DNA from: Sideroxydans sp.
GTDB lineage: Bacteria > Pseudomonadota > Gammaproteobacteria > Burkholderiales > Gallionellaceae
Reading direction: 5' to 3'
Assembly: GCA_028707175.1 (NCBI GenBank)
Contig: JAQTUV010000001.1
Span: forward strand, 124,001 to 188,000
DNA length: 64,000 nucleotides
The notes beneath the pieces were generated by a model, which was not told where the DNA came from, ran no database searches, and saw only the letters and a list, made by a program, of their open reading frames with translations. The position numbers were made by a program, and so were the translations under genes. Shown here in pieces: positions 13,190-32,865 of the stretch (position 1 is the stretch's first letter; each line of letters opens with the position of its first letter).

Positions 13190-16100
13190 ATGTCGAAGAA
13201 TATGATCAATGCTTCAACGGGCGAAAAGAGTAGGGGGTTGAGCGAAGCTAAGGTGGCTCCGTGCGCCCACGAATGTATTCCGTTGACTCAGGAAACTCAA
13301 TGCAAGATTGCTGGGCAGGTAAATAGTCAGAAAGCTTACGCTGGGGTATTAGGCGCCGTCAGCGAGCATCAATCGACGGAAGAAAAACTACGTGCTAGCG
13401 AAGAAAAATTTCGACTGATAGCAGAGCACTCTACGGATGGCATTGCGTACATTCGTGCTGACGGGGTATTCGAATATGTGTCTCCCTCGTATGTAAAACA
13501 GTTGGGCTATGGTGAAGACGTAGAACTATTGCGTACACCCGAATCGTTATACGAGATTATTCATCCAGATGATCGTGATGCGCTATACGCCAAGATCTAT
13601 GCCGCAATTAACGATAAAAAAAGTGAGCTGCAATACGAATATCGTGTGAAACATCGCGATGGACGTTTCATCTGGCGAGAAGATGGCGCGAAATTTATCT
13701 ATGGTGACGCTGGGCAGCACACCGGAACTTATGTTGTTAGCCGAGACATCTCCGAGCGCAAATTAGCTCAGCAGGAATTACGTATCGCCTCTACCGCCTT
13801 TGAGTCGGTGGAATCAATCGTGATTACGGATGCGGATGGACACATTGTGCGCGTCAATCAGGCATTTTGTGACACAACGGGTTATGCCGCGCAGGATGTG
13901 GTCGGTAAACATGTGCGTCTATTGAGATCGGGGCGTCATGACGATGCGTTCTACGTCACGATGTGGAATACCGTCGCACAACACGGGCATTGGGAAGGTG
14001 AAGTTTGGGAAAGGAAGAAGAGCGGGGATGTGTACCCCAAATGGTTGAGCGTCAAAGGCATTAGCAATGCAGATGGCATCGTAGAAAACTTTGTAATTAC
14101 AGGCGCCGATCTCTCGGCCAAAAAATCTGCAGAAGAAACGGCAAGGCATCTTGCTCTATATGATCCGCTGACAGAACTACCCAATCGTCTCTTTCTGGTT
14201 TCACGCTTGCAGCAGGCATTACATACGAGCGCGAGAAGCCAAAAAAGGGGGGCGCTACTTTTTGTCGATTTAGATAACTTTAAATCGCTCAATGACACCC
14301 TTGGACATGATGTGGGTGATCTATTGCTGCGCCAAGCCGCTTCTCGATTGCTCAAATGTGTTCGTGAAGCGGATACCGTCGCTCGATTAAGTGGTGATGA
14401 GTTCGTTCTTCTTCTGGAAGGCTTGAGTGAGCTTGCTGTGCAAGCCGTCAGTCAGGTAGAGGTGATCGGCAATAAAATATTGCAGGCATTGAATCAGCCG
14501 TACGATCTCAATGGTCAGGCGTGCCGTAGTTCTGCCAGTATCGGCGTAGCCCTTTTTGACGAGTATCCGCAAGCGGTTGAAGATATCTTGCGATATGCAG
14601 ATATCGCGATGTATCAGGCCAAAAAAGCAGGGCGTGGCACGCTGCGTTTCTTTGATCCAAAGATGCAAATCGCTATCAATGAGCGCGTCTCTCTCGAACA
14701 TGAGTTGCATCAAGCATTATTAGAGCAGCAATTTGAATTGCATTATCAGATACAGGTCGATAGTGCATATCGACCTATTGGTGCGGAGTCGCTGATTCGC
14801 TGGAGGCATCCTGTGCGTGGGCTATTGGGCCCCAATCAGTTTATCGGCTTGGCTGAAGATTCCGGACTCATCATTTCAATCGGCACATGGGTATTGGAGG
14901 CGGCGTGCCAGCAACTTAAAGTGTGGCAGCAGAGTTCGGCCACTAGCGAATTGGTTTTGGCGGTCAACGTAAGTCCTAAACAATTCCATCAGGCTGATTT
15001 TTCTAGTCAAGTCATGGGGCTTGTTAATCGACATGGCATTGATCCGAATCGACTCAAACTAGAACTGACTGAAAGCATGTTGGTGGACGATATCGATCGT
15101 GTTATTGCCACCATGACTGCTTTGAGAAGTGTCGGCATTCAATTCTCATTAGATGATTTCGGCACGGGTTATTCCTCCTTGCAATATCTCAAGCGCTTAC
15201 CCATAGATCAACTCAAGATCGACTTGTCGTTCGTCAAAAATATTCAGCATGACCACAACGATCGTTCCATCGTGCAAACGATTGTGAGCATGGCTCAAAG
15301 TCTGAATCTTGAAGTGATTGCTGAAGGGGTTGAGAACGAAGAGCAGAGACAGATTTTGTTAAGTAAGGGCTGTCCTAACTTTCAAGGTTATCAATTTAGC
15401 AAGCCCATACCCATCGAACAGTTCGATGCACTATTAATCAGTATGGCCGAGAAATTCACTTCGACTTTAGCGGAAGAGGTTCATTCGCCCACACTGGATG
15501 AAAGTCTGTTGCGTCAGCGAGATCATCACCTATTGTCGGTGCTCGACAACATGCCGGCAATGATTGGTTACTGGGATAAAAACCTGCGCAACCGTTTTGG
15601 CAATGAAGCGTATGCATCTTGGTTTGGTATCTCACCTACGCAGATGTTGGGGCGGCATATTGCCGAAGTGTTAGGGGAGCGACTGACGCGGCTCAACATG
15701 CCCTACATTACGGGTGCTTTGCGAGGTGATCGACAAGTTTTTGAACGTTCCATCCTCTCTCCAGAGGGGAATGTGCGTCACTCATTAGCTGAATACCTGC
15801 CAGATATCGTCGAGGGAGAGGTGCAGGGCTTCTTCGTGCAAGTGACAGATATTAGCGCTGTGAAAAAAGCAGAGGAAGATAAAAGGCGTTCTGAAGAAAA
15901 GTTCAAAGCTTTGTTTGAATCCAACCAAGATGCCTTGATATTAATCAATGAAACCGGCGTTGTGGACTGCAATCAAGCAGCACTACTGATGTTCGGATGT
16001 GATGCGAGATCTGATTTCTCGCGACTACTTATCACACAGCTTGTTATTGAAGATGTGAATTCCGATTCTCATTCGGAATTATTAGCAGAGCAGCGTATCG

Positions 16101-17746
16101 CTTCTGTCCACGCGCTGGGCAAGGTCGATTTTGAGGCGTATGCAAAGCGCATGGATTCTGGCTTGGTATTTCCGATTCGGGTGCGTCTGAGCCTTGTTGA
16201 ATTAGAAAGTGGGCAAGTCATTCAGTTCGTTCTGCGCGACCTCAGTGAGCATGAGCAGTTGATACGCTCCTTGGAAATCAGTAAGCAAGTCTTGGATGTA
16301 ACGACGGAAGGCTACTGGTTGACCGATGCGCAAGGGTATTTGTTAGATGCCAATCAAGCTTACGCTGACATGAGTGGCTATTCTCTTAATGAGTTATCAG
16401 GCATGCATATCAGTGAGTTGGAAGCACAAGAGGTTTCTCGGGAAGAGGTGCATGCTCATATTGAGCAGATCATTGCGCAAGGCTCGGCTCAATTCGAGAC
16501 ATTACATCGCCATCGTGATGGGCACACCATTCCTATAGAGATCACCACTAGCTATTTAAGAGGGTCGCAGCAGTTTGCTGTATTTGCGCGTGACATCACG
16601 CAACGCAAACTGGCTGAAGCGACCCTGCGCGATAGTGAAGAAATGTTGCGCGGACTCTTCGAGTTGTCATCGTTAGGGATCGCCATGGCTGATATGAATG
16701 GACGTTTCATCGAGTTTAACGAGGCATTTCGGGCGATCTGTGGCTATTCAACAGACGAGTTAAAAGGTTTGGATTTCTGGAAGCTGACGCCTGAGAAATA
16801 TGCCGATGAAGAAAAGCGTCAAATGGAAAATCTGATGCGAACGGGCCGATTGGGCCCTTATGAAAAGGAATACATTCGCAAAGATGGAAGTTTGATCCCA
16901 TTGCGCTTAAACGGAATGTTACTCACCAAAAAAGACACGCAACAGTTCATTTGGTGCATTGCCGAGGATATTGCTCAGGAGAAGGCGAGTCAGGCTGAAT
17001 TATTGACCGCCAAAGAGGTGGCCGAGCAGGCAAATCAGGCTAAGTCGCGCTTCTTGGCAGCCATCTCCAACGAATTGCGTACGCCAATGAATGGAATATT
17101 GGGCATGACGCAGATGCTTAAGATGACAGAGTTGACTCCAGAGCAGCGCCAATACGCAGACCTCATCCTTGATTCAGGTCATACGATGATGACGCTCATT
17201 AACAACATCGTTGAATACGCTCAGATCGAATCCGAAGTAGTCGAACTGGTGGAGGACGAGTTCGACCCGCTGCTCATCATGAAAGAAAGCGCCGCTGTGC
17301 TCATGCATGTCGTTAGGGCAAAGGGGCTGCAATTGACCATGCGTTGGCAAGGTTCTGATGAGCGAATCTTCTGGTCTGACCCGGTTCGCCTGCGTCAGAT
17401 GCTCATTAAGCTGATCGAGAATGCGGTGAAATTCACGTCGTATGGCGAAATTTGGGTGGTGGCCAGTGAGTTCATGGACGAGCAGAATAAGTCTTGGTTG
17501 GAGTTCGCCGTTGTGGATGGTGCGCAAGGTATCCCGCTTGAGCAACAACGGAACTTATATCTCTCGTTCTCCCAAATGGAGGCATCTGATGCGCATATTT
17601 TTGAACACGAAGGCATCGGCCTAGCTGCCGTCGCTCGTATCACGAAAATGATGGGGGGCGAAATAGGGGTTGATAGTGAGCCTGACATGGGGTCGCGCTT
17701 CTGGTTTCGAATTCCCGCGTTGCGCCCTCCTGTAATTGCTAACTAA
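13190..17746 (+). CDS. Multi-PAS GGDEF-EAL protein with degenerate kinase module
   Basis: A 1518-residue protein without obvious membrane segments. Order: PAS (about 70-190), PAS (200-315), GGDEF (320-490), EAL (500-755), four more PAS-like domains (780-1265), then a HisKA/HATPase-like end (1285-1515). The cyclase motif reads SGDEF (401-405) with an I-site R392-x-x-D395; the phosphodiesterase motif reads ESL (533-535) with DDFGTG (655-660), so both could be active variants. In the kinase part the usual SHELRTP is SNELRTP: Asn1294 replaces the phosphoacceptor His. The HATPase glycine motifs are also altered (VDGAQGIP, HEGIGLAAV) while IENAVKFT is kept. It is probably a c-di-GMP enzyme with a pseudokinase sensor. 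A sigma-28 promoter precedes it. Confidence 0.9.
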   Translation: MSKNMINASTGEKSRGLSEAKVAPCAHECIPLTQETQCKIAGQVNSQKAYAGVLGAVSEHQSTEEKLRASEEKFRLIAEHSTDGIAYIRADGVFEYVSPSYVKQLGYGEDVELLRTPESLYEIIHPDDRDALYAKIYAAINDKKSELQYEYRVKHRDGRFIWREDGAKFIYGDAGQHTGTYVVSRDISERKLAQQELRIASTAFESVESIVITDADGHIVRVNQAFCDTTGYAAQDVVGKHVRLLRSGRHDDAFYVTMWNTVAQHGHWEGEVWERKKSGDVYPKWLSVKGISNADGIVENFVITGADLSAKKSAEETARHLALYDPLTELPNRLFLVSRLQQALHTSARSQKRGALLFVDLDNFKSLNDTLGHDVGDLLLRQAASRLLKCVREADTVARLSGDEFVLLLEGLSELAVQAVSQVEVIGNKILQALNQPYDLNGQACRSSASIGVALFDEYPQAVEDILRYADIAMYQAKKAGRGTLRFFDPKMQIAINERVSLEHELHQALLEQQFELHYQIQVDSAYRPIGAESLIRWRHPVRGLLGPNQFIGLAEDSGLIISIGTWVLEAACQQLKVWQQSSATSELVLAVNVSPKQFHQADFSSQVMGLVNRHGIDPNRLKLELTESMLVDDIDRVIATMTALRSVGIQFSLDDFGTGYSSLQYLKRLPIDQLKIDLSFVKNIQHDHNDRSIVQTIVSMAQSLNLEVIAEGVENEEQRQILLSKGCPNFQGYQFSKPIPIEQFDALLISMAEKFTSTLAEEVHSPTLDESLLRQRDHHLLSVLDNMPAMIGYWDKNLRNRFGNEAYASWFGISPTQMLGRHIAEVLGERLTRLNMPYITGALRGDRQVFERSILSPEGNVRHSLAEYLPDIVEGEVQGFFVQVTDISAVKKAEEDKRRSEEKFKALFESNQDALILINETGVVDCNQAALLMFGCDARSDFSRLLITQLVIEDVNSDSHSELLAEQRIASVHALGKVDFEAYAKRMDSGLVFPIRVRLSLVELESGQVIQFVLRDLSEHEQLIRSLEISKQVLDVTTEGYWLTDAQGYLLDANQAYADMSGYSLNELSGMHISELEAQEVSREEVHAHIEQIIAQGSAQFETLHRHRDGHTIPIEITTSYLRGSQQFAVFARDITQRKLAEATLRDSEEMLRGLFELSSLGIAMADMNGRFIEFNEAFRAICGYSTDELKGLDFWKLTPEKYADEEKRQMENLMRTGRLGPYEKEYIRKDGSLIPLRLNGMLLTKKDTQQFIWCIAEDIAQEKASQAELLTAKEVAEQANQAKSRFLAAISNELRTPMNGILGMTQMLKMTELTPEQRQYADLILDSGHTMMTLINNIVEYAQIESEVVELVEDEFDPLLIMKESAAVLMHVVRAKGLQLTMRWQGSDERIFWSDPVRLRQMLIKLIENAVKFTSYGEIWVVASEFMDEQNKSWLEFAVVDGAQGIPLEQQRNLYLSFSQMEASDAHIFEHEGIGLAAVARITKMMGGEIGVDSEPDMGSRFWFRIPALRPPVIAN

Positions 17747-19203: not shown

Positions 19204-19569
19204 ATGGCAAAAACGATACTCACGGTGGATGACTCTGGCTCGATCCGGCAGATGGTGACATTCACACTTAAAGGGGCTGGGTACGATGTAATTGAAGCGG
19301 TAGATGGGCAAGATGGTTTGGATAAGGCTAAGGCGAAGAACGTCGACCTCGTGTTGACTGACCAAAATATGCCACGTATGGATGGCATCACGCTCATCAA
19401 GACCTTACGCAGTCTGCCGAGTTATCGATCAACGCCCATTTTGATGCTCACCACCGAATCGGGTGACGCGATGAAGGCACAAGGCAAGGCGGCAGGTGCG
19501 ACAGGCTGGTTGGTCAAGCCATTCGACCCAGCCAAACTGCTGGAGGTTGTTAAGAAGTGTATCGGCTGA
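19204..19569 (+). CDS. cheY: Chemotaxis response regulator CheY
   Basis: Single-domain receiver of 121 residues that, when phosphorylated by CheA, binds the flagellar switch. The phosphoacceptor aspartate is in LVLTDQNMPRMDG (Asp53), the acidic pair is VDDSGS near residue 9, the switch threonine is in LMLTTESG, and the conserved lysine is in WLVKPFDP. AAGGAG precedes the ATG. It lies 17 bp upstream of cheA. Confidence 0.93.
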   Translation: MAKTILTVDDSGSIRQMVTFTLKGAGYDVIEAVDGQDGLDKAKAKNVDLVLTDQNMPRMDGITLIKTLRSLPSYRSTPILMLTTESGDAMKAQGKAAGATGWLVKPFDPAKLLEVVKKCIG

Positions 19570-19586
19570 TGTAGTGAAAGCCAATC

Positions 19587-21644
19587 GTGAGCATTGATCT
19601 TTCACAGTTCTATCAAGTCTTCTTTGAAGAGGCGGCAGAACATCTCGCATCAATGGAGTCCTTGTTGCTTGGGGTGGATATGTCCGACCCCAGTGACGAC
19701 GACCTGAATGCGGTGTTTCGAGCAGCCCACTCCATCAAAGGTGGTGCGGGAACATTCGGCTTCAACGACATGGTGGATGTGACTCATGTGTTGGAGAACC
19801 TGCTAGATAAAATTCGCAAACACGAGATCCGTTTGACCGAAGAGATGGTCAATGTTTTTCTAGAGGCCGGTGATGTGTTGCATATGCAGCTCACCGCACA
19901 TCGTGGTGAAGGAAAAGTTGAACCTACCGAAGTCGCTGCGGTATGTGAAAAACTCGCTGAACTCAACACGCGAAAACAAAGTGCGCCCGAGTGTGTGCTT
20001 GCAGCGGTGCCTGTTGAGACCGAAAGTGCCTATGGATTTTTCGACGACGAACCCGCTGCTTCTCAAGCGCCAACAGAAGAGGCTTTCGGGTTCTTTGATG
20101 ACGAGCCTACGCCAGCAGCTCGCGCGACAGCAGATGATGACGCGTATGGTTTTTTTGGTGATGAGCCTGTCGTGCAGGATGCTCACACCACCGAGGTGGT
20201 CGTCGAGACACCCAAGGGTTATGGATTCTTAGTTGAAGAATCGACCCTTCCCGCACAACAAGAGATTGCCAAACAAGAGCGTCGCCAAGGATATGGATTC
20301 TTGGTGGACACAGCCACACTCCCCGCTCAGCAAACGGCACATGCCGATGACGCCCATCATGATGATGAGCATCATCATCCCACGCGTCGTGCGACTGATG
20401 TTGCCGATGAGCCTGTGCGTGTCGGCCGTCGAGCAAGTGATCGTGCACCTACACCTGCTGCAGCTGATACGTCTATTCGAGTCAACGTAGAAAAAGTCGA
20501 CCAACTGATTAACTTGGTAGGCGAGTTGGTCATCACGCAAGCGATGTTGGCGCAGTCCGCCTCCGAGATGGATGGTGATTTAGTTGAAAAACTGATGAGT
20601 GGCTTGCATCAACTGGAACGCAATACACGTGACTTACAAGAAGTGGTGATGTCGGTACGTATGTTGCCGATCTCATTTGTGTTTAGTCGTTTCCCCCGTG
20701 TGGTGCGTGATCTGGCGGCCAAGCTGAATAAACAAGTCGATCTAAAAACCATTGGCGAAAACACTGAGCTGGACAAAGGGTTGATCGAGAAGATTGCCGA
20801 TCCACTCACTCACCTCGTACGCAACAGTTTGGATCATGGGGTGGAAAGCCCTGAAAAACGTGTCGCGGCAGGAAAGAATGCGAAGGGCACCATTACGTTG
20901 GCGGCATCCCATCAAGGTGGCAATGTGGTCATCGAGGTATCTGATGATGGTGCTGGTCTAAATCGTAGCCGCATCTTGAGTAAAGCGATGGAGCGAGGTT
21001 TACCTGTGCGCGAAGACATCAGCGATCAAGAAGTGTGGATGCTCATCTTCGAACCTGGCTTCTCGACTGCAGAAGTAGTTACCGATGTGTCTGGGCGTGG
21101 CGTGGGGATGGATGTCGTGAAGCGGAACATCGCAGCACTAGGTGGGCGTATCGAACTCAACTCAGTAGAAGGATTGGGAACGCGCACCACGATCCGTTTG
21201 CCACTCACCTTGGCTATCTTGGATGGCTTGTCTGTCGATGTGGGCGGTGAGACTTACATCATCCCGTTGACTAACATTATCGAATCTTTGTTGATTGGCG
21301 ATGCAGATCTACGAACCGTGAGCGGACAAGGTCAAATGATCCACGTGCGCGGTGAATATCTCCCACTGGTGTCGATGCGCGGCTTATTCAACTTGCCAGA
21401 AAAAGCCTATGCGGCGAGCGGACGTATCGTGGTCATCGTAGAGGCTGAAGGACGCAAAGTCGCTTTGTCTGTCGATGATCTGCTTGGTCAACATCAAGTG
21501 GTGATCAAGAGTTTGGAATCCAACTTCAGGAAACTACCCGGCATCTCTGGGGCGACGATCATGGGAAATGGCAAGGTCGCATTGATCTTAGATGTGTCGG
21601 TGTTGAGCTTGACACCTTCCCAGCAAAATCGTTTGGCAGCATGA
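19587..21644 (+). CDS. cheA: Chemotaxis histidine kinase CheA, P2-less with linker repeats
   Basis: Sensor kinase that phosphorylates CheY and CheB under receptor control. The 685 residues hold P1/HPt (His48 in AAHSIKGGAGTFGF), a long linker (about 135-285), P3 dimerisation (from 286), P4 ATPase (HLVRNSLDHGVESP, DDGAGLN, GRGVGMDVV) and P5 CheW-like. I see no P2 domain; the linker instead carries five repeats, AYGFFDDEP (148-156), AFGFFDDEP (166-174), AYGFFGDEP (186-194), GYGFLVEES (211-219) and GYGFLVDTA (235-243), then a His/Asp-rich stretch (254-264). The start is GTG at 19587, in good agreement with the P1 start. It is followed by cheW. Confidence 0.93.
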   Translation: MSIDLSQFYQVFFEEAAEHLASMESLLLGVDMSDPSDDDLNAVFRAAHSIKGGAGTFGFNDMVDVTHVLENLLDKIRKHEIRLTEEMVNVFLEAGDVLHMQLTAHRGEGKVEPTEVAAVCEKLAELNTRKQSAPECVLAAVPVETESAYGFFDDEPAASQAPTEEAFGFFDDEPTPAARATADDDAYGFFGDEPVVQDAHTTEVVVETPKGYGFLVEESTLPAQQEIAKQERRQGYGFLVDTATLPAQQTAHADDAHHDDEHHHPTRRATDVADEPVRVGRRASDRAPTPAAADTSIRVNVEKVDQLINLVGELVITQAMLAQSASEMDGDLVEKLMSGLHQLERNTRDLQEVVMSVRMLPISFVFSRFPRVVRDLAAKLNKQVDLKTIGENTELDKGLIEKIADPLTHLVRNSLDHGVESPEKRVAAGKNAKGTITLAASHQGGNVVIEVSDDGAGLNRSRILSKAMERGLPVREDISDQEVWMLIFEPGFSTAEVVTDVSGRGVGMDVVKRNIAALGGRIELNSVEGLGTRTTIRLPLTLAILDGLSVDVGGETYIIPLTNIIESLLIGDADLRTVSGQGQMIHVRGEYLPLVSMRGLFNLPEKAYAASGRIVVIVEAEGRKVALSVDDLLGQHQVVIKSLESNFRKLPGISGATIMGNGKVALILDVSVLSLTPSQQNRLAA

Positions 21645-21721
21645 GTTAAACAGCACTTTTCTTCTTGTTCTTATCGCTGCATGGCGAGAGAGGCGTGAGG
21701 GGGGTGAATAAGGAGAGAGTA

Positions 21722-22219
21722 ATGACGACAGCAGAAAATCATTCGACGGGTGGAGCGGGATTAACCAATAACGAGTTCCTCACCTTCACCTTGGGTAAAG
21801 AAGAGTACGGTATCGACATTCTTAAAGTGCAGGAAATTCGTGGCTACGACTCCGTCACAACCATTGCCAACACCCCGAGCTTCATCAAGGGGGTGATCAA
21901 TCTACGCGGCACCATCGTGCCCATCGTTGATCTGCGTATCAAGTTCAACATGTCTACCATCGAATATGACCAGTTCACCGTCGTCATCATCTTGAATCTG
22001 GGCAAACGCATCGTCGGCATCGTGGTGGATAGCGTGTCGGATGTGCTCACACTCAATGCAGATCAAATTCATCCGGCGCCCAACCTGTCGTCAGCTTTGG
22101 ATACGCGTTACATCATCGGCTTGGGAACAGTGGCGGATCACATGCTGATTTTGGTCGATATTGAAAAGTTGATGTCGAGTGCAGAGATGGCGCTGACAGA
22201 TGAAGTCGTTGCAGGATAA
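21722..22219 (+). CDS. cheW: Chemotaxis coupling protein CheW
   Basis: Adapter that links CheA to chemoreceptors. The 165-residue protein has the CheW fold with [42 protein letters not shown] and VDSVSDVL. The frame opens earlier, at 21665, but AAGGAG lies just upstream of the ATG at 21722, which gives the family length and a normal N-terminus. The next gene, a chemoreceptor, starts 12 bp downstream. Confidence 0.93.
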
Positions 22220-22231
22220 GGAGCGGCGGTT

Positions 22232-24604
22232 ATGAATAATATGCGCATCACAACTCGATTTATCTGGCTACTGGGCGCGTTCGGCGTGAGTTTTGTCGTG
22301 GCGGGCTGGATCGCGCTGAACACCTTGGGAATGGCTAAGGTGAATGGCCCTATCTATCAAAAAGTCGTACTTCAAAAAGATCTGGTTGCGGACATATTGC
22401 CGCCTCCCGAGTACCTATTGGAAGCCTACTTCGTTGTGCTGCAATTGGCTCAAGCTGAGCAACAAGAGGTACCTGCGTTGATTGTTAAGAGTCAACAGTT
22501 GCGTAAGGACTATGAAGATCGCCACCAATTCTGGAAAGAAAACCTCTCCGAAGGCAAGATCAAAGATCTGATCGTGGTGGATGCCTACACACCAGGTAAG
22601 GCATTTTTGGATGCGCGTGATACTCAATTCATCCCCGCGATTCAAAAAGGAGACCGAGCCGCGATCAATGATGCCTTGCTTGTGTTGGATCAGAAGTATC
22701 GTGAACATCGTCAAGTGATCGATGATCTTGTCGTGAAAGTGAATGAGAAGACGAAACTCGATGAAACGGAAACAGCTGAAGTCATTCAGTCACGCACCTG
22801 GATGATGGTGTTGTTGATGGCCGCAGGCGGTGTTGCGGTCATATTCTTTGGCATGTGGATCGTGCGTGCATTGATTCGTCAGTTAGGTGGTGAGCCAAGT
22901 GATGCAGCTAATGTGGTGCGCCGTATTGCAGCGGATGATTTTTCTTGTGACATTCCTGTCAAGGCGGGTGATCACACCAGCATGATGGCTTTATTAAAGC
23001 TCATGCAGGCCAAGCTGGTAGAGCGTCTCTCGACTGACAAAAAAGCAGCGCAAGACATGGCTCGTTTGACGGCGGCATTGGATTCCATTTCAGCGCCGGT
23101 AACGGTTTCCGATGCGGAGAACCAAGTGATCTACTTCAACGCAGCGATGGGCAAGCAGATCCGTGTGATGCAAAGCGAGATGCAAAAGAAATTCCCGACC
23201 TTTTCAGAAGACAAACTCATCGGACAAAAGGTAGGCAGCTTCTTCGAAGAAGAGTCCGTACGCACCGCATACGGTGCACCCTTGGATGGACCTAAGACAT
23301 TTGATATTCCCATGGCAGGCCGCGCGATGCGCCTGCAACCGAGCCCCATCCACGACGAAAACCGCACCTACCTAGGCCGCGTCACCCAATGGACAGACCG
23401 CACCACCGAAGTTGCGGTAGAGAAAGAAGTATCCTCGATTGTTGAATCCGCCTCCAACGGCGACTTCACCCGCCGTATCGAAGTGAATGGCAAAGAAGGC
23501 TTCTTCCTCAAGCTAACGGAAGACATGAACCGCCTGCTTGAGACCAGCGAAGAAGGACTGAGCGAAGTGGTTCGCGTACTAGGTGCCCTCTCCCAAGGCG
23601 ACCTCACCCAAACCATCAGCAACCACTACAACGGCACCTTCGGTCAACTCAAAGACGACGCCAATGCCACCGTCGCCCAACTCACCGACACCATAGGCCG
23701 CATCAAAGAAGCCGCCGACACCATCAACACCGCCTCCAAAGAAATCTCATCAGGCAACACCGACCTATCGCAACGCACCGAAGAACAAGCGTCCAGCCTA
23801 GAAGAAACAGCGGCCAGCATGGAAGAACTCACCTCCACGGTAAAACAAAACGCCGAGAACGCCCGTCAAGCCAACCAACTCGCCCTAGGCGCATCCGACG
23901 TTGCCATCAAAGGAGGCGACGTTGTTGGTCAAGTCGTACACACCATGGCTTCGATTAGCGATAGCTCCAAAAAGATCGTCGACATCATCAGCGTCATCGA
24001 CGGCATCGCCTTCCAGACCAACATCCTCGCCCTCAACGCAGCGGTAGAAGCCGCCCGTGCAGGCGAACAAGGTCGCGGCTTTGCGGTAGTCGCCTCCGAA
24101 GTGCGCAACCTCGCACAACGCAGCGCAGCGGCGGCCAAAGAGATCAAAACCCTCATAGGCGACTCGGTCGACAAAGTCACGGAAGGCACGGCCCTCGTCG
24201 ACAAAGCAGGCAAGACCATGGAAGAGATCGTGAATGCGGTGAAACGCGTGACCGACATCATGGGCGAGATCAGTGCGGCCTCGAACGAACAAAGCCAAGG
24301 CATCGAACAAGTGAACACTGCGATCACGCAGATGGATGATGTGACGCAACAGAACGCTGCGCTCGTCGAGCAAGCGGCGGCAGCGGCAGAGTCGATGGAA
24401 GAGCAGGCGCGTGAATTGGCGACGCAGATGAGTACCTTTAAGTTGGCGGGGGAGGGGCGGGCGATTGCAGCCTCTAAGCCAGTGGTGAATGCTCGATTAT
24501 CTGCAGTGAAAGATGTGCATAGAACTGAGTCTGTATCACGTGGTGGGCGTGTATTGCCAGCACCAGTGCAGGATGATGAAGCGGCTGACTGGAAAGAATT
24601 TTGA
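22232..24604 (+). CDS. Chemoreceptor 1 (helical periplasmic sensor, PAS-like, DWKEF end)
   Basis: A 790-residue methyl-accepting protein. TM1 is near residues 11-30, a mostly helical periplasmic domain spans 31-190 (with the motif [14 protein letters not shown]), TM2 is 191-214, then HAMP, a PAS-like domain (about 282-395), a second HAMP-like segment (400-510) and the signalling domain with the tip [31 protein letters not shown] near 590-620. It ends DWKEF, a CheR/CheB-tethering pentapeptide of the NWETF type. From residue 282 to 744 it is nearly identical to chemoreceptor 3, at DNA level too. AAGGAG lies upstream of the ATG. Confidence 0.93.
23075..24461 (+). repeat. 1387-bp direct repeat, copy A (inside chemoreceptor 1)
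   Basis: Aligns without gaps to 28345-29731 at a constant offset of 5270 bp. By eye I count 20 mismatches, all in the first 507 bp, with only one changing a residue (Asn/Ser), and none in the last 880 bp. It covers the PAS-like and signalling domains. Confidence 0.95.
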
Positions 24605-24642
24605 TTTAAGAAAACGTAAGTGAACTGAGAAGGAAATACATC

Positions 24643-26997
24643 ATGAACGTCAGCAAAAAATTGTGGTCGATTATCGGCTTGGCCATCATCGCGGTATTGG
24701 TCTTATTAATCGTGGCCTTAATGCATCAACGTGCTTCGTTGATGCAAGACCGACAGAACGCTACACGATATGTTGTCGAGTCGGCTTGGGGGGTGGTGGC
24801 ATCCTTGGATAAGCGTGCACAAGCGGGGGAGATCACGCAAGAGGAAGCGCAACGCTTGGCCATGTTGCAGTTGAAGAACATGCGCTACGACGAGAAGGAG
24901 TATTTCTGGATCAACGATATGCAGCCTCGTATGGTGATGCATCCCACTAAGCCAGAGTTAGATGGTAAAGATCTGAGTGAGAGCAAAGACCCCTCAGGTA
25001 AATTACTTTTCATGGATATGGTGGGGGTCGTGAAGGCATCGGGCGCGGGTTTCGTGCAATACATGTGGCCACGTCCCGGTAGTGACCATCCGATCCCTAA
25101 AGTCTCTTATGTGAAAGGCTATCAACCTTGGGGTTGGGTGATCGGTTCGGGTGTCTATGTCGATGATGTCGATGAAGAGATCAAGAGCGAGGTCGTCAGA
25201 TTAGGACTCTTGGCATTACTCGTGATTACCTTGATGGCAATCGTGGCGAATATGTTGGCCCGTAATATCGCTCGACGTATCGGTGCGGCAGCTGGGGTGG
25301 CGAATGCGGTATCGCATGGCCGCTACGACAATCACATCGAGCAAGATGGTCATGACGAGATTGCAGGGTTGATGACTTCACTTAGTACGATGCAATCCAA
25401 GCTATTGGAGCGACAAGAGCAAGACCGCATCGCAGCGAATGAGATGTCCAGACTGAAATGTGCCTTGGATAACGTCACCATGTGTGTGCGTGTGGCTGAT
25501 AACGATGGCAAGCTGATCTATGTCAACAATGCGCTTAATGAAACCTTGCACAAGTACGAAAGTGCTTTCCAAAAAGAGATCAGTGGCTTCGTCGCCGATA
25601 AGATCGTAGGTGGCAGCATCGGTATCTTCTATGCCGATCCACAAGCTGCGATACAGCGTTTGCGTAACTTGAATTCGACAACACGTACGCGTTTGGTGTT
25701 GGGTGGGCGTAACTATGACGTCATCACGACGCCTATCCTGTCTGCGGCGGGCGAGAAATTAGGAACGGTTGGTCAGTGGATCGACTTGACCGAGCAACTG
25801 GGCGCAGAAGCAGAGGTGTCTAGCATCGTTGAGGCTGCGGCCAATGGTGATTTCACTAAACGTATCGATGTTGAAGACAAGGATGGTTTCTTCCTGAAGC
25901 TCGCTCAAGATATGAACAAGTTATTGGACACCAGCGAGGTTGGTTTGAATGAGGTCGTGCGTGTTCTCGGCGCACTCTCTAAAGCCGATCTGACTGAAAC
26001 AATCACCAATCATTACAGCGGCACGTTTGGTCGTTTGAAAGATGATGCCAATGCGACGGTGGAACAATTGACCGACACGATCAGTCGCATCAAAGAAGCG
26101 GCTGACACCATCAATGTTGCCGCGCAGGAGATCGCATCAGGTAATACCAATCTTTCTCAACGTACCGAAGAGCAGGCGTCTAGTTTGGAAGAGACGGCAT
26201 CGAGCATGGAAGAACTTACCTCAACCGTTAAGTTGAACGCTGAGAATGCACGTCAGGCCAATCAGTTCGCGCAAGGTGCTTCGGCTGTCGCGCAAAAGGG
26301 CGGAGCAGCGGTTAATAGCGTGGTGCACACCATGGCTTCGATCAGCGAAAGTTCACGCAAGATATCCGACATCATCAGTGTGATCGACGGCATCGCTTTC
26401 CAAACCAATATCTTGGCACTCAATGCCGCTGTCGAAGCGGCGCGTGCTGGTGAGCAAGGGCGAGGCTTTGCTGTTGTGGCAACTGAAGTGCGTAATCTTG
26501 CACAGCGTAGTGCAGCCGCTGCAAAAGAGATCACCGCATTGATCGGTGATTCTGTCGATAAGGTTAAACAAGGCTCTGTACAAGTACACGACGCGGGCAA
26601 AACGATGGAAGAGATCGTGACTGCTGTGAAACGTGTGACGGACATTATGGGTGAGATCACCGCTGCGTCGAATGAGCAAAGCCAAGGTATCGAGCAAGTC
26701 AGCCAAGCGATCACGCAGATGGATGATGTAACGCAACAGAATGCAGCGCTAGTCGAGCAAGCAGCGGCTGCAGCTGAGTCAATGGAAGAGCAAGCGCGTG
26801 AGATGGCACGACTGATGAGCACGTTTAGATTGGCGGGTGCATATCAAGCGCAAGTGATTGCCCCCAAGGCGGTTGCTTCACGTCCACGTAGCTTGGAGAA
26901 GCCCATAGCAGCAAGATCTAGCCCTCCAAAATCTAGCGCACGTCCTTTGCCATCCCCAAAACAAGATGATGACGACGGTGATTGGAAAGAGTTCTGA
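24643..26997 (+). CDS. Chemoreceptor 2 (sCache_2 sensor, DWKEF end)
   Basis: A 784-residue methyl-accepting protein. After TM1 (about 10-28) it has a single Cache domain of the sCache_2 type (residues about 33-180: NMRYDEKEYFWINDMQPRMVMHP, then KGYQPWGWVIGSGVYVDDVD), then TM2 near 185-205, HAMP, a PAS-like domain, a second HAMP-like stretch and the receptor signalling domain. sCache_2 domains in other receptors bind small organic acids; the ligand here is unknown. It ends DWKEF, as does chemoreceptor 1. The signalling domain is similar in protein to its neighbours but its DNA is clearly different, so it is not part of the 1.4-kb direct repeat. Confidence 0.93.
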   Translation: MNVSKKLWSIIGLAIIAVLVLLIVALMHQRASLMQDRQNATRYVVESAWGVVASLDKRAQAGEITQEEAQRLAMLQLKNMRYDEKEYFWINDMQPRMVMHPTKPELDGKDLSESKDPSGKLLFMDMVGVVKASGAGFVQYMWPRPGSDHPIPKVSYVKGYQPWGWVIGSGVYVDDVDEEIKSEVVRLGLLALLVITLMAIVANMLARNIARRIGAAAGVANAVSHGRYDNHIEQDGHDEIAGLMTSLSTMQSKLLERQEQDRIAANEMSRLKCALDNVTMCVRVADNDGKLIYVNNALNETLHKYESAFQKEISGFVADKIVGGSIGIFYADPQAAIQRLRNLNSTTRTRLVLGGRNYDVITTPILSAAGEKLGTVGQWIDLTEQLGAEAEVSSIVEAAANGDFTKRIDVEDKDGFFLKLAQDMNKLLDTSEVGLNEVVRVLGALSKADLTETITNHYSGTFGRLKDDANATVEQLTDTISRIKEAADTINVAAQEIASGNTNLSQRTEEQASSLEETASSMEELTSTVKLNAENARQANQFAQGASAVAQKGGAAVNSVVHTMASISESSRKISDIISVIDGIAFQTNILALNAAVEAARAGEQGRGFAVVATEVRNLAQRSAAAAKEITALIGDSVDKVKQGSVQVHDAGKTMEEIVTAVKRVTDIMGEITAASNEQSQGIEQVSQAITQMDDVTQQNAALVEQAAAAAESMEEQAREMARLMSTFRLAGAYQAQVIAPKAVASRPRSLEKPIAARSSPPKSSARPLPSPKQDDDDGDWKEF

Positions 26998-27054
26998 TTA
27001 GGTGATGTACTTGTTGAGTATGAGCTTGAGTGAATGCGGTTAGGGAGAATGAAG

Positions 27055-30000
27055 ATGCGTACAAATATGCCAGTCACGAATACTGAATACATCATGAAAG
27101 ATGATGAGGTACTTGTTTCCAGTACCGATCTAAAAGGTGTGATCACATTTTGTGAGAGTCACTTCATTGCAGCTAGCGGCTACAGCGAATCTGAATTAAT
27201 TGGCCAACCGCATAATTTGATCCGCCATCCCGATATGCCAGTCGAAGCATTCGACGATATGTGGGCGCATATTAAATCGGGAAAGACTTGGTCTGGCGTG
27301 GTGAAAAATCGTCGCCAGAATGGCGATTTTTATTGGGTGTTGGCTAATGTCACGCCATTGCACAAAGAGGGCAAGGTTGTCGGGTATATGTCGGTACGTA
27401 CCAAGCCTGAACGCGAAGTCGTTGCTGCGTGTGAAGCGGCTTACCGCAATTTCCGTGAGGGGCGCGCGAACGGATTGCGTATTTATGGCGGCAAAGTCGT
27501 GAGTGATAATTTGCTGCACAAAATCAATGTCTATTTGAGCCGCGTGACGGTTGGACAGCGAATGTCTGCGGGCTTTGGCGCGGTGTTGTTCCTGCTGGCG
27601 ATGGTTGGTTTGATGGCGTTTAACAACATGCAGGAATTTGGTGAGCAATGGCATGAATATCGTGCGACCGTCTCCAAGAAGCGCGTGTTGTTGGATCATG
27701 CACGGACTCAGTTGGGGGATGGTATCCACCACTTTAAAAATTATTTGATACGCGGGGCCGATTACAAAGAAAAGTTCTATGCGGATATGGCGGGCTTGGA
27801 AAAGACTGTTGCTGAATTCAAACAGATCCCCGGCCTGACTGCGGATGAAACAGCACAGTTCAACAAGTTAGAAGAAAGCCGACTCGCTTATTTGAAGGCC
27901 ATTGATTCGATGGCGGCCATGAAGGCGGAGAAGAAGGGAATCGCGGAGATTGACGGTGCAATCAAGGGAGCAGATAAGCCAATCGCTGCTGCTTTAGATG
28001 AGGTGGACAAGCGTATCAGTGCGGATGCAAAGGTCAGAAGTGAAGCCGTCGATGCGATGATTGGCGCGGACAATCGCAATATGTTGTTGTTGATCGTAGC
28101 GGCCTTCCTGCTTTCTGCGCTGACCGCCTATTTGATCATTCGCAGTTTGCTGGTTCCTGTTAGAAGAGCGACCAGTGCTGCGGTCGCAGTGGCGAGTGGT
28201 AACTTCAATCATCAGATTGACGTGGGCGGGCGTGCAGATGAGTTAGGCCAACTGTTAGATGGTTTCCGAGCCATGCAGATTCAAACAGGGTTTGCGATGC
28301 GCCAAACTGAACAAAAAGCGGAAGAATCATTACGCATCAAGATTGCATTGGATTCCATTTCAGCGCCGGTAACGGTTTCCGATGCGGAGAACCAAGTGAT
28401 CTACTTCAACGCAGCGATGGGCAAGCAGATCCGCGTGATGCAAAGCGAGATGCAAAAGAAATTCCCGACCTTTTCAGAAGACAAACTCATCGGACAAAAG
28501 GTAGGCAGCTTCTTCGAAGAAGAGTCCGTGCGCACCGCATATGGTGCCCCTTTGGATGGACCCAAGACGTTCGACATTCCCATGGCAGGTCGCGCGATGC
28601 GCCTGCAACCGAGCCCCATCCACGACGAGAACCGCACCTATCTAGGCCGCGTCACCCAATGGACAGACCGCACCACCGAAGTCGCGGTAGAGAAAGAAGT
28701 ATCCTCGATTGTTGAATCCGCCTCCAACGGCGACTTCACCCGCCGCATCGAAGTCAGTGGCAAAGAAGGCTTCTTCCTCAAACTCACAGAAGACATGAAC
28801 CGCCTGCTTGAGACCAGCGAAGAAGGACTGAGCGAAGTGGTTCGCGTACTGGGTGCCCTCTCCCAAGGCGACCTCACCCAAACCATCAGCAACCACTACA
28901 ACGGCACCTTCGGTCAACTCAAAGACGACGCCAATGCCACCGTCGCCCAACTCACCGACACCATAGGCCGCATCAAAGAAGCCGCCGACACCATCAACAC
29001 CGCCTCCAAAGAAATCTCATCAGGCAACACCGACCTATCGCAACGCACCGAAGAACAAGCGTCCAGCCTAGAAGAAACAGCGGCCAGCATGGAAGAACTC
29101 ACCTCCACGGTAAAACAAAACGCCGAGAACGCCCGTCAAGCCAACCAACTCGCCCTAGGCGCATCCGACGTTGCCATCAAAGGAGGCGACGTTGTTGGTC
29201 AAGTCGTACACACCATGGCTTCGATTAGCGATAGCTCCAAAAAGATCGTCGACATCATCAGCGTCATCGACGGCATCGCCTTCCAGACCAACATCCTCGC
29301 CCTCAACGCAGCGGTAGAAGCCGCCCGTGCAGGCGAACAAGGTCGCGGCTTTGCGGTAGTCGCCTCCGAAGTGCGCAACCTCGCACAACGCAGCGCAGCG
29401 GCGGCCAAAGAGATCAAAACCCTCATAGGCGACTCGGTCGACAAAGTCACGGAAGGCACGGCCCTCGTCGACAAAGCAGGCAAGACCATGGAAGAGATCG
29501 TGAATGCGGTGAAACGCGTGACCGACATCATGGGCGAGATCAGTGCGGCCTCGAACGAACAAAGCCAAGGCATCGAACAAGTGAACACTGCGATCACGCA
29601 GATGGATGATGTGACGCAACAGAACGCTGCGCTCGTCGAGCAAGCGGCGGCAGCGGCAGAGTCGATGGAAGAGCAGGCGCGTGAATTGGCGACGCAGATG
29701 AGTACCTTTAAGTTGGCGGGGGAGGGGCGGGTGCTGGCTGTTCCGAGGGGGAGGCATGTACCACGTTTGCCGCAGTCGACAAGTTCTATGGCTCGACTGT
29801 CCGCAGTGACTGTTGTGGATGCGGATTTCTCATTCGACGACGCCATCGCCGCACACACAAAATGGAAGGCTCGCCTAGTCAGTTATGTGAAGGGGACGAG
29901 TAATGAAGAGCTAGAAGTGGGGAAGGTCTCACGCGATGATTTGTGTCCCTTAGGCTGCTGGCTGCATGGGCCCGCAACGAGTTATGACGGGATGAGTGAG

Positions 30001-30177
30001 TATGCTGATTTGAAACGTCATCATGCGGCGTTTCATCGGAGCGTGGGCGAAATTGTTCAATGTGTTCACGACGACAAACAAGATGAGGCAGCACGCAAAT
30101 TGGGTGGAGAGTTCTTTCAGAATTCTAACCACACGATGAAAGCCATCAAATCTTTGCAGGCCAAAGTGCAGGGATAG
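27055..30177 (+). CDS. Chemoreceptor 3 (Aer-like PAS, helical sensor, CZB domain)
   Basis: A 1040-residue receptor. An Aer-type PAS domain at residues about 15-115 ([48 protein letters not shown]) suggests flavin-based redox or energy sensing. Then TM1 (about 180-198), a helical periplasmic domain, TM2 near 345, HAMP, a PAS-like domain, the signalling domain and a C-terminal CZB zinc-binding domain with CPLGCWLHG and HHAAFH. It has no DWKEF end. The start is placed at ATG 27055, 6 bp after AGGGAG; ATGs at 27034 and 27049 are less well placed. Residues about 431-892 are encoded by copy B of the direct repeat. Confidence 0.92.
28345..29731 (+). repeat. 1387-bp direct repeat, copy B (inside chemoreceptor 3)
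   Basis: Second copy of the repeat at 23075-24461, same length and no gaps. The last 880 bp (28852-29731) are identical to copy A. Similarity stops abruptly at both ends, at the codon before the PAS-like domain and just after the signalling domain. Confidence 0.95.
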
Positions 30178-30271: not shown

Positions 30272-30319
30272 CAATCACGGATAAATCAGGCCGGATCAAT
30301 AGAAACCTAGGTGCGTATC

Positions 30320-31192
30320 ATGGCTGAGATGAAAGACCCCGACAGCAGAGAGTTTCACTTCACCGCTCAAGATTTTCAGCGTGTAAGTAAGATGATTCAT
30401 GAGCATGCTGGCATTACGTTGAGTGATAGCAAGCAGGAGTTGGTATATAGCCGTTTATCCCGACGTTTACGTGCTACAGGTACGCGAACATTCGGCGAGT
30501 ACCTTGCGCTACTCAACAAAGGGAACGAGAAAGAGTGGGAGGCATTCGTCAACTCACTGACGACCAACCTCACGGCATTTTTTCGTGAACCGCATCATTT
30601 CCCTCTATTGGCAGAGCATTTGCAGAAGCTGGGGGGCAGCAAACCTATCGTATTGTGGTGTTCGGCAAGTTCGACTGGCGAAGAGCCGTACTCGATGGCC
30701 ATGACGGCGATCGAAACCTTTGGTGCGACGTCGCCGCCTGTGACCATCATCGCAACAGATCTAGATACCAATGTGATCGAAACGGCACGCAATGGGGTTT
30801 ATCCCATGGAGCGTGTGGAGAAGCTTGAGCCGGAAAGATTGAAGCGGTTTTTCTTTCGAGGTGAAGGCAGCCAGCAAGGATTTGTCAAAGTGCGCCCTGA
30901 GTTGCAACGCATGATCACGTTTAGGAAATTAAATCTGCTAGATGCGAATTGGTCGTTGCATGGCGGATTGGATGCGATCTTCTGCCGTAATGTGATGATC
31001 TATTTTGACAAAGATACACAACTCGCCATCTTGAAGCGTTTCGCACCGTTATTGAATGAGAACGGATTGATGTTCGCAGGACATTCAGAGAATTTCTATC
31101 ATGCCGATGCCTATTTCAAACTGCGCGGTAAGACGGTGTATGAGTTATCTCCTAAATACAAGTTAGCGCATCCTCAAACGAGTGGGCGCTAG
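30320..31192 (+). CDS. cheR: Chemoreceptor methyltransferase CheR
   Basis: Uses S-adenosylmethionine to methylate glutamates on chemoreceptors. The 290-residue protein has the N-terminal helical domain, then the methyltransferase with LWCSASSTGEEPYSMAM, IIATDLDTNVIETA and CRNVMIYFD. The ATG at 30320 is used because AGGTG lies 7 bp upstream. The two receptors that end in DWKEF supply a likely docking site for the beta-subdomain. A REP element sits between it and the receptor gene upstream, so it may be transcribed separately. Confidence 0.93.
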   Translation: MAEMKDPDSREFHFTAQDFQRVSKMIHEHAGITLSDSKQELVYSRLSRRLRATGTRTFGEYLALLNKGNEKEWEAFVNSLTTNLTAFFREPHHFPLLAEHLQKLGGSKPIVLWCSASSTGEEPYSMAMTAIETFGATSPPVTIIATDLDTNVIETARNGVYPMERVEKLEPERLKRFFFRGEGSQQGFVKVRPELQRMITFRKLNLLDANWSLHGGLDAIFCRNVMIYFDKDTQLAILKRFAPLLNENGLMFAGHSENFYHADAYFKLRGKTVYELSPKYKLAHPQTSGR

Positions 31193-31201
31193 GGGCAATA
31201 C

Positions 31202-31813
31202 ATGGCAGACCGAGATTACGAGGAAGTTGTTTCACCCAACCAGTATTTTGACCGCAACTTCAATACGGAGGCGGTCAAGATATTGCCTGGTGAGTATTAC
31301 GTGACAGGGCGGGATATGGTGTTAGTCACGGTATTGGGCTCATGTGTTGCTGCCTGTATTCGAGATCGCGTGAGTGGCGTGGGGGGCATGAATCATTTTA
31401 TGTTGCCAGGGAATGATACCGATCCAACGGTGGTGGGAACATCCGCGCGTTACGGTACCTATGCGATGGAGTTGATGATCAATCAGTTGCTCAAATCGGG
31501 TGCCAAGCGAAGTAACTTGGAAGCGAAAGTTTTTGGCGGTGGCAATGTGTTGCGCGGTTTTACGGTGGCCAATGTGGGGCAACGCAACGCAGAGTTCGTA
31601 ATCGACTATCTTCAGACCGAAAGGATCAATGTGTTGGCGGAGGATCTGTTGGGTTTGTATCCGCGCAAACTTTATTACTTCCCCGCGACGGGACGCGCTT
31701 TAGTCAAACAATTGCGCGAAGCCCATAACGATACGATCTTACAGCGTGAGATGCAGTATGGTCAGCGCATCAAGAGCTCTACTGTACAAGGGGATGTGGA
31801 GATATTTTCATGA
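31202..31813 (+). CDS. cheD: Chemoreceptor glutamine deamidase CheD
   Basis: Deamidates glutamines on chemoreceptors to make methylatable glutamates. The 203-residue protein shows the catalytic pair, Cys in [11 protein letters not shown] and His in [10 protein letters not shown], plus the conserved KVFGGGNVL. The stop overlaps the cheB start (ATGA), so translation is coupled. Length is at the upper end for the family because of extra residues at both termini. Confidence 0.92.
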
Positions 31814-32865
31814 TCAACAATAGAAAAATTAAAGTTCTCATCATCGATGACTCAGCATTGATTCGCAGTATCTTGAAAGAGATTATCAATGATCAGTCTG
31901 ACATGGAGGTGGTCGGTGTGGCGACCAATCCTTTAATGGCACGAGATATGATTAAGACGCTCAATCCTGATGTATTGACGCTGGATGTGGAGATGCCTCA
32001 GATGGATGGGCTGACATTTTTGGAAAAGCTCATGCGTTTGCGCCCGATGCCTGTGCTCATGATTTCAAGTCTGACTCAGGCAGGTTCGGAGGTCGCGCTT
32101 CATGCGCTTGAATTGGGGGCGGTGGATTTCTTAACGAAACCGAAGCTAGGTGTGGCGGATGGGATGATTGCGTATACGGAAGAGATCGCAGGAAAAATTC
32201 GCGCGGCGAGTCGGGTGCGTCTAAAACCGAGGGAAGTATCTCCGGTACCTGCGCAACATTTGCCCGCTGTTGGGAATCGTTTGTCGACGACTGAAAAAAT
32301 TATTGCTGTCGGTGCGTCAACAGGTGGAACAGAGGCGCTTAAAGAGTTTTTGATGCCGATGCCTGCGGATTCCCCTGCCATCGTGATTACACAACATATG
32401 CCTGAGGCATTTACCAAATCCTTTGCGGCTAGATTGGATGGCTTGTGTAAGGTGACGGTGTGCGAGGCCGAGCATAATCAGCGCATCTTGCCGGGGCATG
32501 TGTATATCGCGCCTGGGCACTCTCATTTATTGCTGAAACGTAATGGCACCAACTATGTAACGGAATTGAGCCAAGCTGCCCCAGTCAATCATCATCGCCC
32601 TTCAGTGGAGGTGTTGTTTCGCTCTGTCGCACAGTACGCAGGTGCTAATGCTATCGGGGTGATGTTGACAGGGATGGGTAAGGACGGTGCGACGGGGATG
32701 TTGGCGATGCGTGAGGCAGGTTCATACAACTTGGCTCAGGATGAGGCGAGTTGTGTCGTGTATGGTATGCCGCGCGAAGCGGTTGCGGTGGGTGCAGTGC
32801 ATGAGGTGGTGAGTGTTCGAGATATGGCGCAGAGAGTGCTCTATCGTTTGTCACATCTTCAATGA
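31810..32865 (+). CDS. cheB: Chemotaxis methylesterase/deamidase CheB
   Basis: Removes methyl groups from receptors when phosphorylated by CheA. The 351-residue protein has an N-terminal receiver (Asp59 in [11 protein letters not shown]) and a C-terminal esterase with the catalytic triad Ser170 (GASTGGTE), His196 (TQHMP) and Asp292 (GMGKDGATG). It follows cheD with a 4-base overlap and precedes the STAS gene by 30 bp. Confidence 0.94.

Follow-up and report, generated by a model that had tools for sequence, protein, structure and literature searches.

The window analysed here (64,000 nucleotides of Sideroxydans sp., contig JAQTUV010000001.1, positions 124,001 to 188,000) carries a chemotaxis operon, in which three receptor genes, termed R1, R2 and R3, lie between cheY-cheA-cheW and cheR-cheD-cheB. 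The outer two, R1 and R3, contain the copies of a direct repeat that corresponds to one protein module, reaching from the start of an inner PAS-like part (of which types A and B are distinguished below) to just past the signalling domain. This MCPsignal domain scored above the Pfam cut-off and the genes stand beside che genes, which identifies the products as methyl-accepting chemotaxis proteins (MCP). The sequence comparisons presented below suggest that R1 and R3 most likely share this 1.4-kb signalling half through recent copying from one to the other. The operon consists of the following parts (all coordinates refer to the window):

19204–22219, plus strand: cheY, cheA and cheW, upstream of R1
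22232–24604, plus strand: receptor R1, 790 amino acids, with sensor S1, inner PAS-like part of type B, HAMP_2, MCPsignal and the C-terminal end DWKEF
22232–23074, plus strand: S1 sensor part of R1, sharing 66% identity with receptor 1 of the sister genome G011, with codons of the leading-strand type
23075–24461, plus strand: repeat copy 1, the module of inner PAS-like part (type B), HAMP_2 and MCPsignal
23582–24461, plus strand: 880-bp tail of copy 1, identical to that of copy 2
24643–26997, plus strand: receptor R2, 784 amino acids, with an sCache_2 sensor, inner PAS-like part of type A, HAMP_2, MCPsignal and DWKEF
25462–26847, plus strand: module of R2 (type A, HAMP_2, MCP), not homogenized with R1/R3, with codons of the leading-strand type
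27034–30177, plus strand: receptor R3, 1047 amino acids, with an N-terminal PAS, sensor part S3, inner PAS-like part of type B, HAMP_2, MCPsignal and the zinc-binding domain CZB
28345–29731, plus strand: repeat copy 2
28852–29731, plus strand: 880-bp tail of copy 2, identical to that of copy 1
29842–30177, plus strand: CZB tail of R3; in the relatives G011, G056 and G114, CZB ends the S1 receptor
30311–32865, plus strand: cheR, cheD and cheB, downstream of R3

The name "PAS-like" is based on the position of the inner part and on weak or clear Pfam PAS matches in relatives; the Pfam scan left this part without a match in both R1 and R3. The two receptors share 24% identity in their N-terminal parts, and their C-terminal ends are of different types. 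C-terminal ends of the xWxxF type tether adaptation enzymes. A tandem duplication of the whole gene was ruled out by the low identity of the sensors and by the unlike ends, although a weak gapped similarity (22 of 47 residues) continues past the 3′ end of the repeat into the linker.

Pairwise comparison gave an ungapped alignment of 1387 bp between the two copies with 20 mismatches, found at positions 90, 186, 198, 204, 207, 219, 225, 228, 231, 246, 285, 297, 339, 402, 411, 413, 438, 441, 444 and 507 of the repeat, while the 880-bp 3′ tail showed no difference at all. The original prediction, made from the letters of the window, had given the same coordinates, gap-free alignment, mismatch count and identical tail, and re-alignment reproduced them exactly. 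If mismatches were placed evenly, the probability of finding all 20 in the first 507 bp would be 1.8e-9, and a mismatch-free run of 293 codons occurred in none of 100,000 simulations, the longest simulated run being 230. Immediately outside the repeat the ungapped identity falls to 10–42% per 50 bp. A near-identical tract with such abrupt ends inside otherwise diverged paralogues is characteristic of gene conversion. Searching the own genome (2.89 Mb in 19 contigs) returned nine matches, namely both copies, R2 (74% over 1013 bp) and six fragments of 95–152 bp, thus no third full copy was found there. In agreement with the earlier remark that the intervening receptor encodes a similar domain with quite different DNA, R2 is 65% identical to the repeat over the length of the module. 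R2 also lacks the codon anomaly of the repeat.

The mismatches are synonymous in 19 cases and non-synonymous in one. Synonymous divergence (dS) between R1 and R3 was 0.164 over the first 507 bp and 0 over the 206.7 synonymous sites of the tail, whereas R1 and R2 showed a dS of 0.77 in the tail stretch. When R3 was compared with its sister-species counterpart, receptor 2 of G011, the uncorrected synonymous divergence was similar in the front (0.61) and in the tail (0.66), therefore constraint cannot account for the clean tail, and the view that ordinary conservation is no explanation was borne out. The copies differ by 17 transitions and 3 transversions, while the third positions of R3 and G011 over the same stretch gave a ratio of 31:48 (Fisher p 3e-4); this excess of transitions points to changes arising after copying. 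It also makes it less likely that a diverged allele was imported into the first 507 bp, despite some clustering of the front mismatches (11 in 38 codons, p 0.019, with a width picked after seeing the data), which suggests that small additional tracts may be present. The pattern of divergence fits a single copying of the whole module, followed by point changes in the front and a later exchange of the tail.

Shared runs were also surveyed in 27 loci having at least two such receptors, which provided 60 same-locus pairs, a non-random sample as the loci were picked by similarity to R1 or as relatives. An exact run of at least 100 bp within the module was present in six of the 60 pairs, the studied one included: 879 bp in the R1–R3 pair (the 880th base falls just beyond the module limit used), 797 in L091, 170 in L062, 137 in L126, 103 in L096 and 101 in L048, at a median of 32.5. 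Eight pairs were profiled along their length, and the identity peaked in the signalling half and was lower in the sensors. Named loci with a che operon similar to the one studied include L048 (a Gallionella metagenome-assembled genome, MAG) and L042 (a Nitrosomonadales MAG).

The origin of the parts was traced in 158 genomes of the family, each representing one species, from which the order of events was inferred. In a protein tree of the inner part (20 rows, four further matches left out) types A (6 rows) and B (8 rows) formed separate clades with 100/99 support each, with the program's warning of long branches meeting between A and B. The S1 sensor had matches in 26 of the 158 genomes, own included, at E 1e-20 or better. 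In all five closest relatives (G011, G056, G057, G058 and G114; S1 identity 53–66%) it is joined to type A, whereas compared with these five only the studied genome joins it to type B; in the more distant S1 relatives G006, G062 and G064, the sole ones examined, neither A nor B was found beside S1. Seven of the 158 genomes, own included, have a type-B part of at least 52% identity. Its closest other copy (79%) belongs to the last receptor before cheR in a member of the same genus; in G011, G056 and G058 it stands beside an N-terminal PAS in the receptor directly following the S1 receptor, G135 has it in the sole receptor that separates cheW from cheR, and G062 and G064 have it in a receptor for which the 15–16 kb examined contained neither a cheA nor a cheR match. 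Because the receptor after S1 pairs type B with an N-terminal PAS in G011, G056 and G058, type B is probably native to R3.

The C-terminal ends showed a similar reassortment. The S1 receptor ends in CZB in G011, G056 and G114; its gene is cut by the contig end in G057, and G058 (L129 1–5202) represents another rearranged version of the operon, cut by contig ends, in which CZB is missing from the S1 receptor and is matched upstream of it instead. On receptors with an N-terminal PAS, CZB was absent from all eight complete ones scanned in family genomes and from those scanned in L048 (one) and L091 (two). Compared with these arrangements, the studied operon contains the combinations S1-B-WKEF (R1), sCache_2-A-WKEF (R2) and PAS-S3-B-CZB (R3), so that S1, the A module and CZB, which are parts of one S1 receptor in the relatives, are spread over R1, R2 and R3 with their usual order kept. 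In a DNA tree of the MCP part (19 rows; receptor 2 of G058 was left out since it is cut) R1 and R3 were identical, R2 grouped with the S1 receptor of G114 (97/97), and the paralogues of L048 came together (100/100), those of G011 weakly (82/28); the base composition of R1 deviates from the other rows of this tree. Thus the tract groups R1 with R3, both in the inner protein part and in the identical MCP DNA, while the sensor of R1 goes with type-A S1 receptors, a discordance that a conversion event would produce.

Considering these results, we propose, with a probability of roughly 0.8, that the type-B module of the last receptor was copied by homologous recombination into the first. In the first step, the module of R3 (inner PAS-like part, HAMP_2 and MCP) would have been copied into R1, by which the type-A module of R1 would have been replaced; 20 point changes would then have accrued in the front, while later exchange kept the 880-bp MCP half identical. 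The direction from the R3 type to R1, the occurrence of at least two episodes and a RecA-type recombination as the agent are inferred. "Recent duplication or ongoing gene conversion", as formulated previously, was supported as to recent copying or conversion and not as to plain duplication, since more parts moved than such a duplication would carry: inner part, signalling domain and C-terminal end are in other combinations than in the five closest relatives. The history of the operon as read from these sequences appears to be one of domain shuffling, involving sensor, signalling and tail pieces, plus homogenization.

Several observations weigh against the copying of the module from R3 to R1 as a full account. 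The receptor following S1 in G114 has a third type of inner part, neither A nor B, so type B is not universal at this place. Relative to G011 and G056, R1 and R3 have swapped their C-terminal ends as well, consequently a single conversion tract is insufficient for the layout. No relative with two type-B receptors in the che operon was found in which the pattern could be tested, and the genome is a 19-contig draft of a single strain of the species, judged without reads. Finally, simple copying from one leading-strand gene to another does not account for the codon anomaly of the repeat, described below.

The alternative that survives best, to which we would give somewhat less than even odds, is that unequal crossing-over inside the MCP domains broke an old two-receptor operon (S1-A-MCP-CZB and PAS-sensor-B-MCP-WxxF), so that S1 remained in R1, A-MCP in R2 and CZB in R3; the direct repeat would be the footprint of this event, and conversion would only have maintained identity. 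The positions of S1 (22232–23074), the A module (25462–26847) and CZB (29842–30177), which follow the order within the single gene of G011, G056 and G114, argue for such an event, as do the grouping of the R2 MCP part with the G114 S1 receptor and the absence of CZB from the N-terminal-PAS receptors mentioned above; R2 (A with WKEF) and R3 (B with CZB) would be the reciprocal products expected from a crossover in the MCP domain. However, R1 switches from A to B before the well-conserved MCP part begins, which requires an extra event, the intermediate layout was seen in no genome examined, and the S1 receptor without CZB in G058 makes the starting state uncertain. Crossing-over of this kind is more a complement than a competitor of the proposed copying from R3 to R1.

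The codon usage of the repeat was examined by a scan along the region, since the original prediction had noted many C-ending codons and frequent CTA and ATA. C had a share of 0.46–0.47 at third positions of the repeat, compared with 0.26 in the R2 module and 0.22–0.24 in the N-terminal parts of the three receptors. CTA was mildly raised (6/28 and 4/28 Leu in the two copies versus 7.8% in the other genes of the window), whereas ATA was not (2/28 Ile per copy versus 8.5%). The strongest rise was that of CTC, with 15/28 Leu in the R3 copy; its share of Leu in the repeat (0.54) exceeds the highest value among 165 own genes, 0.38 in receptor L148. The Karlin-type bias of the repeat against the other window genes was 0.54, while the maximum among 39 segments of 462 codons in those genes was 0.396. 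The lagging-strand genes of this genome favour C and A over T and G at third positions where the strands clearly differ, a contrast that was seen in the window and in several other stretches and was small in others (e.g., L158, L160 and L161). At four-fold sites the C+A share is 0.68–0.69 in the repeat, 0.42–0.44 in the N-terminal parts of R1–R3 and 0.39 in the R2 module, and plus-strand genes of the window have 0.43, minus-strand genes 0.57; the value of the repeat was attained by 5 of 168 own genes (at least 250 codons, 16 sampled stretches). The anomaly resembles, in its direction, the usage of the genome's own lagging-strand genes.

Nine stretches contributed 85 leading- and 48 lagging-strand genes to the training of a codon model; seven of the stretches were labelled by third-position asymmetry and two (L178 and L179) after their neighbours on the contig. 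The left-one-out score of the model was 81/85 for leading and 45/48 for lagging genes, a flattering result because stretches of weak asymmetry were excluded. With this model, lagging-like cores appeared at the same place in both copies, within the repeat:

23168–24310, plus strand: core of copy 1 with lagging-strand-like codons, summed log-likelihood ratio 67.8
28438–29580, plus strand: core of copy 2 with lagging-strand-like codons, summed log-likelihood ratio 67.3

Among 64 leading-strand genes the top segment scores were 39.1 and then 12.3. The gene reaching 39.1 has purL-type domains (L162 16825–19977, minus strand, own genome, contig C15); presumed to be on the leading strand yet having C-rich lagging-like codons, it is a counter-example to a reading by strand origin only.

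These data raise the possibility, tentative and weaker than that of crossing-over, that the core of the module came from a lagging-strand receptor gene, either a lost copy in the lineage or one of a close relative, and was pasted into R3 and R1 so recently that its codon signature persists. The C+A contrast, the segment scores and the CTC share point in this direction, and among the 19 own receptors only R1 and R3 combine an MCP part of 0.68 with an N-terminal part of 0.42–0.44; receptors L138, L148 and L152 have 0.63–0.78 in both parts, L138 and L148 being on the lagging side of their stretch. In addition, the type-B receptors of G062 and G064 score as lagging in both sensor and module by the codon model of the studied genome. 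On the other hand, the bias exceeds that of the average lagging gene (AAC 0.90 versus 0.56), no donor gene was found in the own genome, and the purL-type gene and the stretches with little strand difference speak against this origin. A milder C-richness of the module is also normal, as its four-fold C share was above that of the own N-terminal part in 18 of 21 receptors of relatives and equal in three, although the rise was at most 0.16 there compared with 0.26 in the repeat. The codon pattern does no more than hint at a donor on the lagging strand.

An outside source of the repeat had also been suggested from its codons, but a distant origin was not supported, given the presence of type B in the family and the 79% copy in the same genus. 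The closest copies found were those in the genus and family; no search aimed at the type-B part alone reached beyond the family. Among the best 80 of at least 589 matches of the R1 scan of named genomes, no module was closer than that of G011. Of 72,556 plasmid records, 1,659 matched (1,654 at 60–80% and 5 at 80–90% identity) and none covered over 80% of the query, by which a plasmid origin was rejected; the plasmid matches listed covered 49–59% of the query, from position 523 or later.

Codon bias could also be selected, the conserved signalling domain being written in translationally preferred codons and its identity being partly due to constraint, which we consider unlikely. The higher four-fold C of modules in 18 of the 21 receptors of relatives is in line with it, but no rise of this kind occurs in the R2 module, whose codons are of the leading type and whose MCP part has 85% amino-acid identity, and 880 identical bases are beyond constraint in view of the dS values of R3–sister (0.66) and R1–R2 (0.77). 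High-expression codons of the ribosomal type were ruled out by comparison with the genes around ribosomal L3, which use other codons (TTG 0.58, CTC 0.04, CGT 0.61, GGT 0.65). Selection on codons is thus disfavoured as a cause of the sequence identity. A still less probable, speculative reading takes the operon as a shuffling device, in which a lagging-made cassette is pasted under several sensors and a 5,270-bp loop-out switches the inputs of the chemotaxis array within the population; if so, the loop-out between the direct repeats would delete R2 and leave an in-frame S1-type B-MCP-CZB receptor. Least probable is an assembly artefact duplicating one tail copy, for although the sequence is a draft of 19 contigs judged without reads, both copies lie in one 640-kb contig with unique flanks and 20 differing sites, neither reading frame is broken and the two lead to unlike C-terminal ends, for a direct repeat with both copies in one contig there is, by reasoning, just one order in which the middle piece is kept, and a comparable case exists in another genome (L091).

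Two further genes of the window deserve mention. The gene at 13190–17746 (plus strand) encodes a 1518-amino-acid protein with repeated PAS, GGDEF and EAL, then HisKA and HATPase_c domains; for c-di-GMP and histidine-kinase parts of a single chain this order seems unusual. The gene at 9394–11214 (minus strand) encodes a clostripain-family (Peptidase_C11) protein of 607 amino acids, and its G+C share at third codon positions (0.446) is the lowest of the 37 window genes listed. A search for 16S in the own genome (19-contig draft, 99.94% complete) gave no match; since 16S was detected in this way in just 9 of the 14 control genomes, the absence may stem from the search and says little.

Taken as copying of the R3 module into R1, the case provides a reshuffled receptor set, the pieces of which can be traced to partners in sister species. 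The differing sensors would share one signalling part facing CheA/CheW, which would let a receptor take up a new input and keep an output that fits the receptor array. Strand-specific codon usage may tag the origin of a copied segment, and trees of MCP signalling domains are to be read with caution, as they can track recombination instead of receptor history.

Within the family, the operons of G011 and G056 are alike in the order of cheW, receptors and cheR, in the sensors (S1 and N-terminal PAS) and in the module types A and B (in G056 cheD and cheB follow cheR, the G011 contig ends in cheR), but they have two receptors, S1-A-CZB and PAS-sensor-B-WxxF, instead of three. L091 (5850–12010; Candidatus Nitricoxidireducens bremensis MAG) resembles the R1–R3 pair in having adjacent receptors with 797 identical bases in the signalling half and different sensors (Cache versus four-helix bundle); unlike in the studied pair, its near-identity includes the C-terminal end, and its N-terminal PAS parts also resemble each other (74–80%). 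Among the matches listed in a literature search on concerted evolution of chemoreceptors in bacteria, no title dealt with bacterial receptors; in the excerpts of PMC6197692 an MCP gene is named only for a heterogeneous site, and in those of PMC9769880 "gene conversion" is used once, on pseudogenes. According to the latter, Tlp2, Tlp3 and Tlp4 of Campylobacter jejuni have identical signalling domains and sensors of about 30% identity, and excerpts of PMC6433261 describe extensive recombination of Tlps, sensors of one type that carry alternative C-terminal sequences, and identical C-terminal halves that form large repeats. As far as these excerpts go, the C. jejuni Group A Tlps and the R1–R3 pair are alike in being paralogous receptors with differing sensors, (near-)identical signalling halves and recombination. 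In contrast, some Tlp genes bound invertible chromosome segments, whereas R1 and R3 are tandem genes of one che operon; their shared module, unlike that of the Tlps, holds the inner PAS-like part and HAMP_2, and the ends (WKEF and CZB) were also exchanged. The R1/R3 case thus appears to be of a kind already known from the Campylobacter Tlps, to which it would add the inclusion of the inner PAS-like part in the shared unit and the exchanged ends.

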